This document shows, piece by piece, positions 16,009 to 19,992 of a stretch of 60,404 nucleotides of DNA (positions within the stretch are counted from its first letter, which is position 1; every line of letters begins with the position of its first letter). The stretch covers positions 5,947-66,350 of the forward strand of contig JAJVHZ010000041.1 of NCBI GenBank assembly GCA_022072255.1, given 5' to 3'. Source of the DNA: Gammaproteobacteria bacterium (GTDB lineage: Bacteria > Pseudomonadota > Gammaproteobacteria > JAJPIJ01). Made by a program: the position numbers and the translations under genes. Under the pieces are notes generated by a model. The model was not told the DNA's origin and did no database searches. It saw only the letters and a list, made by a program, of their open reading frames with translations.

Positions 16009-17073
16009 TCAGTGATCCAGAGGCAGGCAGACGCGCCGTCCGTCACGGGCGGAAAGGTACGCGGCAATCAGTATCTCGAGCGATCGAAGGCCCTCGCGGC
16101 CGTCCGTCTCGGCCTCCGCCTCGCCTCTCAGGACCTTCAGCACGTTGTCGTAATAGAGTGGATGTCCGAAACCGTACACGGAGGTCGTCAGGTAGCTGGC
16201 GTCCTTGACCCTCGCGTCGTCCTCATCCGCCTCCGCAAACTCCCAGTGCTGGATCTCGTTGACGGCGACACCGCCGACGCGAACGGTGCCCTTCTCGCCG
16301 ATGATGGTGATCGAGCCCTCGAGATTGCGCGGGTAGGTCAGCATGGTCACGGCGACCGTGCCGAGCGTACCGGTACGCCACTTCACGTTCATCACGCCGG
16401 TGTCCTCTACCTGGATGTTGCGCGCCAGCGTCGCGGTGTAGGCATGGACGCTCTCGACCGGCCCGATCAGCCAGTCGAGCAGGTCGATGTAGTGGCTGGC
16501 CTGGTTCATGAAGGCGCCGCCATCGAACTCCCAGGTGCCGCGCCACCTGGCGCTGTCATAGTATTCCTGAGGTCGAGACCAGAACACATTGACCGTAACC
16601 ATGTAGATCCGGCCGAAGCGCTTGCGCTCGACGGCGCGCTTCAGCAACTGCAGCGTTGCGTTGCGCCGATTCTGCTTGACCACGAACAGCCGGACGCCGG
16701 CCTGATCGCAGGCGTCGACCATCCGCTGGCCATCGTGCCAATGGGTCGCCATCGGCTTCTCGGTCATGACATTGAAACCGGCCTCGGCGGCCTGGATCGT
16801 CTGCCGGGGATGGAGTCCGCTCGGCGTGGCCAGCACGACGACGTCGGCATCGACCTTGGCAAGCATGTCCTCGTATCGCGAGAACGGTCTTGCGCCGGTG
16901 AGCTTCTCGGCGTTCCCGAGCGCGACGGGATCGATGTCGCATACCCCCGCCAGTTCGGCGCCGGCCTCGTGCTGGCGCATCGCCTCGAAGTGATTGCGCG
17001 CGATTCGTCCGCAGCCGGCGAGGGCGAATCGGATCCTTCTGTCCGTGATAGGCGGCTTGAACTGATTCAACAT
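16009..17073 (-). CDS. wbpB: UDP-GlcNAc-uronate 3-dehydrogenase (WbpB/WlbA-like, Gfo/Idh family)
   Basis: 354 aa. N-terminal RFALAGCGRIARNHFEAM, then TEKPMATHW (EKP signature near residue 105) and GGAFMNQASHYIDLL carrying the catalytic His. WbpB/WlbA oxidises C3 of UDP-GlcNAcA with NAD; WbpA-type dehydrogenase, encoded at 22915-24201, would make that substrate. It is the first gene after the ops leader, with a strong GGAAGGGG ribosome site about 8 bases before ATG. It is followed closely by wbpD and wbpE. Confidence 0.87.
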   Translation of the reverse strand: MLNQFKPPITDRRIRFALAGCGRIARNHFEAMRQHEAGAELAGVCDIDPVALGNAEKLTGARPFSRYEDMLAKVDADVVVLATPSGLHPRQTIQAAEAGFNVMTEKPMATHWHDGQRMVDACDQAGVRLFVVKQNRRNATLQLLKRAVERKRFGRIYMVTVNVFWSRPQEYYDSARWRGTWEFDGGAFMNQASHYIDLLDWLIGPVESVHAYTATLARNIQVEDTGVMNVKWRTGTLGTVAVTMLTYPRNLEGSITIIGEKGTVRVGGVAVNEIQHWEFAEADEDDARVKDASYLTTSVYGFGHPLYYDNVLKVLRGEAEAETDGREGLRSLEILIAAYLSARDGRRVCLPLDH

Positions 17074-17117: not shown

Positions 17118-17129
17118 CACGCTACCGCC
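17118..17129 (-). promoter_or_regulatory. ops element (RfaH recruitment site)
   Basis: On the minus strand the sequence is GGCGGTAGCGTG, which matches all 12 positions of the end of the enterobacterial JUMPStart/ops consensus as I know it. It is immediately preceded by a near-copy, CGCGGTAG (17130-17137), making a tandem of two 8-base units. It lies 45 bases upstream of the wbpB ATG, inside the leader of the long glycan operon. An RfaH homologue is encoded 2.4 kb upstream (19492-19992). RfaH would load on RNA polymerase here and suppress termination across the 17-kb operon. Confidence 0.8.
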
Positions 17130-17262
17130 CTACCGCGTCGGACACGACCCAGTATCACCGTCTATGCAGGTTCGCACGTCCACCGGCCGCGCCAACCGCC
17201 ATTCCTCTTCGGGCGATGGCAGGTACCGGGCGCACCCGGGCGACGCCAATCTCCCCCTTCCG

Positions 17263-17280
17263 GCGAGCCTCCGGGCTCGC
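17263..17280 (-). terminator. Hairpin directly after the regulator stop codon
   Basis: Perfect 7-bp stem (GCGAGCC / GGCTCGC) with a 4-base loop, starting at the base after the regulator's TAG stop. No U-tract follows on the minus strand (CGGAAGGGGG), so it is not a classical intrinsic terminator. It lies between the regulator and the ops element, so it may be a pause, an mRNA-stabilising hairpin or a weak termination point. Confidence 0.4.
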
Positions 17281-17931
17281 CTACCTCTGCCTGGCCTGGC
17301 TCCTGGCCCGCGGCCCCGCGGCGCCGAGAGTCTGTGCCCGACCGAGAACATCCGGTACGCGTATGCGACCCGGCCCCAGCCGGGCGGTGATATCGCGATA
17401 CAGCTCGCCCGACTCGTCGAGGGCGGTCAGGATGCAACTGTCGAACGCAACGACGTTCGAGAACTCCCGCCATACCGGCTGGCCGACGAAACGGGCGCGT
17501 TCGCTCGACGGGTCGTAGGTTCCCACGACTTCGAGTCCTTCCTCCTCCGCACGCAGCGACGCGATCTCCGCGAGTTCCGATACACCGCACAACAGGATGA
17601 GGCCGTGGCCGTCGGCGCGACAGGCACGCAGGGCGGCCGCGCACGACTCGGAAGCGCGCCGGTAGAAATCGAAGGAAATCGACAGGTACTTCGCGGTGAG
17701 GCGGCTTTTTTCCGAAAAGCCCTTGGGAGTCAGATAGTAGAGATAGCGGTTCGCCGGCGCCTGCTTGATCTTCACGAGGCCCTTGCGTATGCACCGCTTC
17801 AAATACAGATTGGTGAGTCCTAAGGCGACATCCAGACGCTCAGCGAGGTGCCGCTGCGACACATCACTGCGAGAATCGATGGTCTCGAGAATCTCGAGCG
17901 TGACTGCGTCCTCGCGGTCCTGCGTGTTCAT
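17281..17931 (-). CDS. Winged-helix (MarR/EPS-type) regulator with Rossmann-like C-terminal domain
   Basis: 216 aa. Residues ~8-95 form a winged helix resembling the EPS-associated MarR-type regulators (SQRHLAERLDVALGLTNLYLKRCIRKGLVKI, then a YYLTPKGF wing). Residues ~108-200 look like a small Rossmann-type fold (GHGLILLCGVSELAEIASL, then GLEVVGTYDPS and FVGQPV), recalling the nucleotide-sugar-binding N-domain of PglD-like proteins. A ligand-sensing role is inferred. The start ATG at 17931 lies inside a perfect palindrome (17924-17942) just after a strong promoter, so the mRNA is probably leaderless and autoregulated. It heads the glycan operon; an ops leader follows. A longer in-frame start upstream would run into manC and is rejected. 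Confidence 0.78.
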   Translation of the reverse strand: MNTQDREDAVTLEILETIDSRSDVSQRHLAERLDVALGLTNLYLKRCIRKGLVKIKQAPANRYLYYLTPKGFSEKSRLTAKYLSISFDFYRRASESCAAALRACRADGHGLILLCGVSELAEIASLRAEEEGLEVVGTYDPSSERARFVGQPVWREFSNVVAFDSCILTALDESGELYRDITARLGPGRIRVPDVLGRAQTLGAAGPRARSQARQR

Positions 17932-17942
17932 TAAATGAACAC
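17924..17942. promoter_or_regulatory. Operator-like perfect palindrome over the regulator start codon
   Basis: GTGTTCATTAAATGAACAC is a perfect 9-bp inverted repeat around one central A. It spans the predicted transcription start and the ATG of the winged-helix regulator, and touches the last two bases of the -10 box. A dimeric regulator bound here would block its own promoter. The palindrome size suits a winged-helix dimer. Confidence 0.72.
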
Positions 17943-17969
17943 TATAGGATCCCGTACATGCAGCGTCAA
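17941..17969 (-). promoter_or_regulatory. Sigma70 promoter of the regulator/glycan operon
   Basis: Minus strand: -35 TTGACG (17969-17964), 17-base spacer, -10 TATAGT (17946-17941). Five of six positions match the consensus in each box. It sits in the 50-base gap between manC and the regulator. The expected start of transcription, near 17934, is only about 3 bases before the ATG at 17931, which predicts a leaderless transcript. Confidence 0.75.
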
Positions 17970-17981
17970 GCAGGTATCGGA

Positions 17982-19424
17982 TCAGTTCCGATTGTAGGCG
18001 TCCTCGAACCGCACGATGTCGTCCTCGCCCAGGTAGGGTCCGGACTGGACCTCGATCAACTCCAGCGGGATCGTCCCCGGATTCTCCAGACGATGGCGCA
18101 CTCCCACCGGTATGTAGGTGGACTGATTCTCGGTAAGCAGAAAAATCTCTTCCCCGCGCGTCACGCGCGCCGTGCCGCGCACGACTATCCAGTGCTCGGC
18201 GCGATGGTGATGCATCTGCAGCGAGAGCTTGCCCTCCGGATTCACGACAATTCGCTTTACCTGAAACCGTTCGCCCGCATCCACACCCTCGTAACTCCCC
18301 CACGGCCGGTATACGCGTCGGTGGGAAAGACGCTCCGTCCGGCCTTGCTGCCTCAGCCACTCCACCACGTTCCTGACCTCCTGTGCCCTGTTCCTGGGCG
18401 CGACGAGCACCGCGTCGGCCGTTTCAATCGCCACGAGATCGGTGCATCCCAGGACCGCCACGAGCCGATGCTCCGATATGACCATGCAATCGCGCGAATC
18501 GATGGCACACACGTCGCCGATGCACACGTTGCCGGCGGAATCGCGCGCGGAAATCTCCCACAGGCTGGACCATGCCCCGACGTCGGACCATCCGGCGGCC
18601 AGCGGCACCACGACTGCCTTCATGGTCGCATCCTTGGCCACTTTCTCCATGACGGCATAGTCGACGGAATCCCCTGGACACGCGAGGAATGCCGCCTCGT
18701 CCGGGCGAAGGAAACCGCCATCGAGTCGTGCCGTCGCGTTCGCCCTGACGCAGGCGTCGTGGATATCCCTTCGATAGCGGCCTATCGCGGACATCCATGT
18801 CGACACGCTCATCATGAAAATGCCGCTGTTCCACAGGTACGTGCCCGACTCCACGTATCTTCGGGCGGTCTCCGGGTCTGGTTTCTCCACGAAACCGTCA
18901 ATCGGCAGCGAGACTCCATCGGCGTCCACGTTCGGGCCGGCGCTGATATACCCGTAGCCCGTCTCGGGCCTGTCAGGAATCACGCCGAAGGTCACGAGCG
19001 CTCCGTCTCGCGCCTGCCCCAACCCGACATGCACCGCGCGCGCGAAGGCGGCCGAGTCGCGTATCACATGATCGGCGGGCATCATGAGCATCGTCGGATC
19101 GGCGCCGCCATTGCCGCAGACCAGCGCCGCGATCGTGAGGGCCGGCGCGGTGCTGCGTCCCGCCGGTTCGAGGATGATCCCGCCAGGCACCATCCCAAGC
19201 TGTCTGGCCTGTTCGGCAACCAGGAAGCGGTGCTCCTCGTTGCAGACGATCAGCGGCGGATCCACCGCCGCGGATCCGGAGAGTCCGTCGAGCCGGCGCA
19301 TCGTCTGCTGCAGCAGCGTCTCCTCGCTGCCCAATTTCAGGAACTGCTTGGGATAGTGTTCTCTCGATAAGGGCCAGAGCCGCGTTCCGCCTCCGCCGGC
19401 CAGAATTACTGGTGTAATTGTCAT
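17982..19424 (-). CDS. manC: Mannose-1-phosphate guanylyltransferase / mannose-6-phosphate isomerase
   Basis: 480 aa bifunctional type II enzyme (AlgA/WbpW/ManC) that makes GDP-mannose from fructose-6-phosphate via Man6P and Man1P. The N-terminal domain has ILAGGGGTRLWPLSREHYPKQF and FVEKPDPETA. The C-terminal cupin isomerase domain has QMHHHRAEHWIVVRGTARV near residue 400. Full length. It is preceded by GGGG about 8 bases before the ATG and lies 67 bases after the RfaH gene, so the two are probably co-transcribed. GDP-mannose may feed mannose, rhamnose or fucose donors; the legionaminate GDP-sugar comes from PtmE instead. Confidence 0.92.
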   Translation of the reverse strand: MTITPVILAGGGGTRLWPLSREHYPKQFLKLGSEETLLQQTMRRLDGLSGSAAVDPPLIVCNEEHRFLVAEQARQLGMVPGGIILEPAGRSTAPALTIAALVCGNGGADPTMLMMPADHVIRDSAAFARAVHVGLGQARDGALVTFGVIPDRPETGYGYISAGPNVDADGVSLPIDGFVEKPDPETARRYVESGTYLWNSGIFMMSVSTWMSAIGRYRRDIHDACVRANATARLDGGFLRPDEAAFLACPGDSVDYAVMEKVAKDATMKAVVVPLAAGWSDVGAWSSLWEISARDSAGNVCIGDVCAIDSRDCMVISEHRLVAVLGCTDLVAIETADAVLVAPRNRAQEVRNVVEWLRQQGRTERLSHRRVYRPWGSYEGVDAGERFQVKRIVVNPEGKLSLQMHHHRAEHWIVVRGTARVTRGEEIFLLTENQSTYIPVGVRHRLENPGTIPLELIEVQSGPYLGEDDIVRFEDAYNRN

Positions 19425-19491: not shown

Positions 19492-19992
19492 TCACTCCAG
19501 GCGTGCAATGTCGTCGGATCGCACATTTACGGCGACCACACGGCCCGCGATCTTCAGGAGCAATACCACCCGCTCTTTCGCGGTTTGCGCCTTGAATACC
19601 GCCTCGTAGCCCGCCATCGCCCCGCCCACTATCATCACGGTCTCTCCAGCCACGAATCTGCCCTGGTCGGACTCGTGGATGCCATTCTCGCCCGCTTGCG
19701 CCTTCAACGCGCCGACAAAAGCGTCCGGCACCCGGGCCGGAACATCACCGAAAACCACCAGTCTCGACACTCCGATCGTCGAGCGAATCGGCTTCCAGTT
19801 GTCAGATTCCTGATCGAGGTGGATGAACAGGTACCGCGGGAACATGGGAGCAACACACCAACGTGCACCTGGATGCCCCTGGCGCCGTTGCCGCAGCATG
19901 GGCAGATAGACCCCGTAGCCCTGTCGCTCGAGATTCCTCGCGGCGAGCGCCTCCTGGCGTGGCTTGCAGTAGATGAGAAACCACTCGCGCAA
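19492..19992 (-). CDS. rfaH: RfaH-type transcription antiterminator (NusG paralogue)
   Basis: 166 aa. The N-terminal NGN domain begins REWFLIYCKPRQEALAARNLERQGYGVYLPM and continues PMFPRYLFIHLD. The C-terminal KOW-type domain reads VAGETVMIVGGAMAGYEAVFKAQ. This fits RfaH rather than NusG (shorter, encoded inside a polysaccharide locus). The start is TTG, with GAGG about 6 bases upstream; no ATG is available. It acts with the ops element at 17118-17129 to let RNA polymerase read through the long operon. It is divergent from the polymerase/ligase gene. Confidence 0.88.
   Translation of the reverse strand: MREWFLIYCKPRQEALAARNLERQGYGVYLPMLRQRRQGHPGARWCVAPMFPRYLFIHLDQESDNWKPIRSTIGVSRLVVFGDVPARVPDAFVGALKAQAGENGIHESDQGRFVAGETVMIVGGAMAGYEAVFKAQTAKERVVLLLKIAGRVVAVNVRSDDIARLE

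Follow-up and report, generated by a model that had tools for sequence, protein, structure and literature searches.

The window analyzed here, a stretch of DNA of 60,404 nucleotides, contains on its minus strand a gene (17281..17931) encoding a regulator of 216 amino acids and lying within a glycan locus. Upstream of it on the same strand are found a gene for the NusG paralogue RfaH (19492..19992; 164.9 bits with TIGR01955, above the cut-off of 144.5) and manC, coding for a mannose-1-phosphate guanylyltransferase/isomerase (17982..19424; TIGR01479, 665 bits for a cut-off of 373). Only 50 bases separate the end of manC from the regulator ATG, so that read-through could transcribe the regulator too. 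On the other side, the 207 nt that separate the regulator from the glycan genes contain a perfect ops element (GGCGGTAGCGTG, 17118..17129, minus strand), located 151 nt past the regulator stop codon. A GC-rich hairpin without a T run (GGCGAGCCCGGAGGCTCGCC, 17262-17281, minus strand) is observed at this stop codon, before ops. The first gene after ops encodes a Gfo/Idh/MocA oxidoreductase (16009..17073, minus strand) and displays an ordinary GGAAGGGG ribosome site. Altogether, about 15 same-strand genes follow the regulator in the window, and they point to acetamidino- and nonulosonic-type sugars; besides Gfo/Idh, their products include a hexapeptide transferase, aminotransferases, HisF- and HisH-like proteins, NeuC and NeuB. 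The first-pass annotation had counted at least 17 further genes, more than the count obtained here, and had made the regulator the first gene of the locus. This last point has to be corrected for rfaH and manC, which precede it; what stands is that transcripts from the regulator promoter would run through ops into the glycan genes.

The promoter, the palindrome and the winged-helix ATG that had been described as superimposed within 46 bases are all present on the minus strand, where TTGACG-N17-TATAGT is immediately followed by GTTCATTTAATGAACAC (from 17969 to 17924). The -35 hexamer TTGACG (17964..17969) and the -10 hexamer TATAGT (17941..17946), both on the minus strand, are separated by a spacer of 17 and match the consensus at 10 of 12 positions. 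They constitute the sole sigma-70-like site between 16.5 and 20.0 kb, and the sole minus-strand one between 1 and 20 kb. The predicted operator is a perfect 19-bp palindrome (GTGTTCATTTAATGAACAC, 17924..17942) made of 9-base arms around one central base, with a conserved core GTTCA-N5-TGAAC at 17926-17940. Counting this one, the window has three odd palindromes whose arms are at least 9 bases long, and the 19-mer is single-copy in the 4.27-Mb genome with 3 mismatches allowed. The start codon of the regulator (17929..17931, minus strand) falls within the palindrome, its TG being provided by the right half-site TGAAC, and the -10 hexamer ends 9 nt before it. This ATG is the only in-frame start in the region considered (30 codons upstream or the aligned N-terminus), the next one being codon 24, within the helix-turn-helix. 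In a search for a Shine-Dalgarno sequence the best match to AGGAGG was 2/6. From the position of the -10 hexamer, the 5' end of the transcript is predicted at 17934-17931 on the minus strand, which would leave a leader of 0-3 nt.

Residues 7-91 of the regulator match the MarR_EPS family (TIGR04176) with 67 bits and an E-value of 1.3e-18, a score below the curated cut-off of 88 bits. The MarR_EPS model describes short, single-domain proteins (105 positions), and the regulator of 216 residues carries a second folded domain. A Pfam search of the regulator at E 0.001 returned HTH_24 only. We built an AlphaFold model with 42 orthologues (mean pLDDT 85), which displays a winged helix, a long helix (residues 69-106) and a Rossmann-like C-terminal domain (about 109-204). 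For this C-terminal domain, no Foldseek match was as good as E 0.001, and VIA-align returned many Rossmann/CoA-binding chains with modest scores (Z 8-10), among them succinyl-CoA synthetase alpha, WbaP, UDP-quinovosamine dehydrogenase and Rex, too even to pick a ligand. A search of solved structures with the regulator sequence gave nothing useful. The neighbourhood is that of a polysaccharide locus, as in the MarR_EPS family, with manC, NeuB, NeuC, a LegC-type aminotransferase and an O-antigen ligase near the regulator.

Homologues were collected from 369 genomes of the class, which yielded about 37 long and some 35 short regulator forms, to which 5 long forms from other classes and 4 loci from a named collection were added. 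The first-pass annotation had tied its proposal to the conservation of the palindrome at orthologous loci, and the core GTTCA-N5-TGAAC is indeed found upstream of 44 of the 45 long orthologues. Other spacers between the half-sites (N0-4, N6-12) were found in none of these 45. Of 13,312 combinations of half-site and spacer, the next best are shifted versions of this very site, and no unrelated one exceeds 4/45. The exact core is also present at 27 of the 30 short MarR_EPS-type homologues with usable upstream DNA; among the carriers of the operator are long homologues from another class (L071-L073). Its occurrence with both long and short forms indicates that the operator belongs to the whole regulator family, and such conservation excludes a chance palindrome. 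Coding constraint can be excluded as well, since the invariant left half-site lies outside the gene, upstream of it, and the operator persists even where it lies far from the start.

The genuine operator is mostly single in a genome and located at the regulator gene. Additional matches in the genomes of relatives lie nearly all within coding sequence, which disfavours a wider regulon. A second perfect operator, apparently intergenic, is nonetheless found 4.7 kb upstream of the regulator in one relative (L107, 8297-8313, on G166:C110); this match (G166:C110:8297), a possible second target, may be real, as may another apparently intergenic one (G237:C29:86290). Paired operators were also observed. 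In L003, L005, L016 and L018 two of them stand exactly 30 bp apart, at -39 and -9 relative to the start codon. This distance corresponds to about three helical turns and places the upstream operator over the -35 region, a geometry that suggests cooperative dimers. The long homologues L071-L073 have pairs 27-28 bp apart, one operator overlapping a TTGAC hexamer.

The fusion of operator and start codon is itself recurrent. In 31 of the 45 long loci, the start codon (ATG or GTG) takes its TG from the right half-site, TGAAC, whose AAC then forms codon 2. The distance from the -10 hexamer to the start codon is 9 nt in 28 of these 31 fused loci; the -35/-10 spacer is mostly 17, and a TTGAC-like hexamer is kept at -38..-34 from the start codon. 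None of the 31 possesses a Shine-Dalgarno sequence, the best match to AGGAGG reaching at most 4/6 anywhere, and in many of them the start codon within the operator is the sole in-frame start before an upstream stop. Apart from the -35, the -10 and the operator, their upstream DNA is unconserved. A search of the 369 genomes for the fused pattern, made independently of the protein, returned 36 places, of which 28 are at the regulator. Those of the remaining matches that were read lie within open reading frames (G013, G132, G183, G223, G345, G348 and G336:C8).

Exceptions to the fusion are informative. In five loci (L025, L027, L028, L030, L031) the regulator directly follows rfaH, its start codon does not overlap an operator, and the operator is found 580-753 nt upstream, about at the beginning of rfaH. 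The loss of the overlap where the operator precedes rfaH argues that the operator serves a transcription unit rather than the start codon itself. L004 and L019 retain the operator with its ATG or GTG out of frame, and the regulator gene begins further downstream, which shows that the overlap is not obligatory. In L004 (5980-6015) the operator ATG opens a five-codon frame (MNTNR) ending in a TGA that overlaps the ATGA where the gene really starts, and the arrangement in L019 is similar. In the protein tree, in which many forks are poorly supported, about 5 changes account for the fused state, which is scattered over the gammaproteobacterial clade. The exceptions thus indicate that the operator is the primary element, one that is commonly positioned so as to merge with the start codon.

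The surroundings of the regulator are conserved as well. Among the 32 gammaproteobacterial loci with enough flanking DNA, 26 carry a sense-strand ops (at most one mismatch allowed) 40-344 nt past the regulator stop codon; it is absent after the regulator in L111, L115, L119, L124 and L013. In most loci rfaH lies upstream of the regulator, and in several (L003, L108, L113 and others) it lies directly upstream, with the fused promoter between it and the rest. In L125, which is the L071 locus, rfaH comes after the regulator. Elements identical or similar to ops are also seen near short MarR_EPS-type genes (L058, L060, L064, L166, L169, L171, L174, L175, L177-L179, L183 and L185). The RfaH protein of E. 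coli is recruited to elongating polymerase at ops (PMC2871177). Judged from these genomic comparisons, RfaH, the predicted leaderless autorepressor, ops and the glycan operon are a conserved module.

We propose that this module is governed by an autoregulatory promoter, with a leaderless regulator mRNA, autorepression by a dimer and transcripts continuing to ops and RfaH, a scheme to which we attribute a probability of about 0.8. RNA polymerase bound at TTGACG/TATAGT would start 0-3 nt from the ATG and produce a leaderless mRNA, the translation of which would hold the level of the regulator low. A regulator dimer on GTTCA-N5-TGAAC would reach from the end of the -10, across both the start site and the ATG, into codon 2; once enough protein is present, initiation at its own promoter would be blocked. 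Transcripts escaping this block would extend past the regulator gene as far as ops, 151 nt further on. There the RfaH encoded in the locus would load and take polymerase to the end of the long glycan operon. Repression would be lifted by a signal to which the Rossmann-like C-terminal domain would respond. We infer from the arrangement the binding, the start site, the repression, the inducer and co-transcription through ops, as well as control by the regulator over the whole glycan locus.

The leaderless mRNA and the tight autorepression predicted by the first-pass annotation are strongly supported by comparison. The fixed distance of 9 nt between the -10 and the start, the absence of a Shine-Dalgarno sequence and the invariance of the half-sites outside the coding part all argue for a leaderless, autorepressed mRNA. 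Autorepression is further supported by a site that is usually unique in the genome and by the disappearance of the ATG overlap where the operator precedes rfaH. For an operator lying over a start site, repression is the reading that fits best, short of proof. Weighing against the scheme are the MarR_EPS score under the cut-off, the genes of L004 and L019 that start outside the operator, possible read-through from manC and the loci in which ops is absent. With this arrangement found again in many distant relatives, the self-limiting switch is very probably real rather than a coincidence.

On the other hand, one could assume that the palindrome is the regulator's own operator in a purely local circuit, the glycan genes being transcribed by read-through from rfaH-manC or from a promoter of another class. 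The two upstream genes on the same strand, the 50-base gap devoid of an obvious terminator and a regulon that appears tiny, given the coding location of nearly all extra matches, are in keeping with this idea, which we consider possible but rather doubtful. Indeed, ops requires a polymerase coming from upstream and stands directly after the regulator in most loci, no sigma-70-like site is present between the regulator and the glycan genes, and several relatives have the fused promoter between rfaH and the rest. That the palindrome acts as RNA, controlling translation through a hairpin which conceals the start codon, seems very unlikely to us. In RNA read through from upstream the start codon does pair, its mean unpaired probability being 0.20 as against 0.86 in the leaderless RNA (30 loci, about four of them read on the opposite strand because the pattern is palindromic). 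However, such pairing is automatic for any palindrome and hence is not evidence of selection. Moreover, a transcript begun at the fused promoter would lack the left half-site, the half-site letters are invariant without covariation, and in some loci the operator is 50-750 nt away from the gene. Finally, binding of another regulator, or a chance palindrome at an ordinary promoter, might be invoked because palindromes with such arms are not rare in the window. We give this almost no credit in view of the near invariance of the core in long and short loci, of a genuine site that is mostly single and at the regulator gene, and of an operator that accompanies the gene family everywhere, including in other classes.

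Returning to the autoregulatory promoter, a more speculative extension, which we put forward as improbable in its entirety, would combine promoter-specific translation of the regulator with gating of ops and RfaH by the dimer. In the read-through RNA from rfaH-manC, the palindrome would fold over an AUG without Shine-Dalgarno sequence, and only the leaderless RNA from the regulator's own promoter would be translated. The dimer footprint would then gate the number of polymerases that reach ops and load RfaH, and the Rossmann-like domain would sense a glycan precursor, giving feedback. Dozens of gammaproteobacterial genera would in that case share a two-step switch of initiation and antitermination.

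A parallel can be drawn with AcuR from Rhodobacter sphaeroides, whose acuR-acuI-dddL operon offers an experimentally working example, in a proteobacterium, of a leaderless autorepressor placed first (PMC3017554, for the parts of that report considered here). As in our locus, the repressor gene is promoter-proximal and without Shine-Dalgarno sequence, an inverted-repeat operator lies over the promoter and the arrangement is conserved in diverse bacteria. The acuR mRNA begins exactly at the AUG, whereas here such a 5' end is predicted from the -10 spacing alone. AcuR differs in belonging to the TetR family and in its operator, TAATAGAC-N6-GTCTATTA, which in those parts of the report is placed over the promoter with no start codon described inside; the system, as presented there, has neither RfaH nor ops. 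Regulated repressors made from leaderless mRNA, as predicted here, are also exemplified by lambda cI and Tn1721 tetR (as cited in the same parts of PMC3017554) and by cI and cro of PY54 (PMC4488713). Unlike our regulator, these are phage or transposon genes with other folds and operators and no tie to a glycan locus.

Closer relatives are the MarR_EPS proteins, which share with the regulator the winged helix (its residues 7-91), the operator GTTCA-N5-TGAAC, an exopolysaccharide-type locus and, in several cases, a nearby ops. They are distinguished from it by its length, its C-terminal Rossmann-like domain, its score under the family cut-off and the fusion of its start codon to the operator. 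The presence of RfaH in the locus and of a perfect ops before the glycan genes recalls the RfaH/ops and UpxY-type antiterminator systems (PMC7593976). In the same survey one RfaH cluster (CL4) is associated with an HTH regulator, so that the neighbourhood is partly known already; its main text does not mention MarR, a winged helix or an operator. Like Rex redox repressors, the regulator is predicted to have a winged helix followed by a Rossmann-like domain, with VIA-align Z of 7.7-8.7 to Rex chains, others scoring higher. Unlike Rex, it has no Rex DNA-binding or CoA_binding Pfam domain (at E 0.001), no GxGxxG motif and a different operator, and the resemblance may reflect a common fold only. 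In the open-access literature we found no description of an operator with the start codon inside it and with this placement conserved over many genera, and no study of a MarR_EPS operator. Leaderless repressor-first operons are already known; the start-codon-carrying operator and the family operator were not found described in that literature.

These data provide a widespread family of regulators of polysaccharide loci with a concrete operator that can be tested, GTTCA-N5-TGAAC, and link this family with RfaH and ops in a single module. They offer a natural case in which one short sequence would serve the sigma factor, the repressor and the ribosome together, and a conserved gene predicted to be leaderless in a class, the Gammaproteobacteria, in which this is uncommon. 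Such a switch would help explain how bacteria decide whether or not to make a surface glycan.
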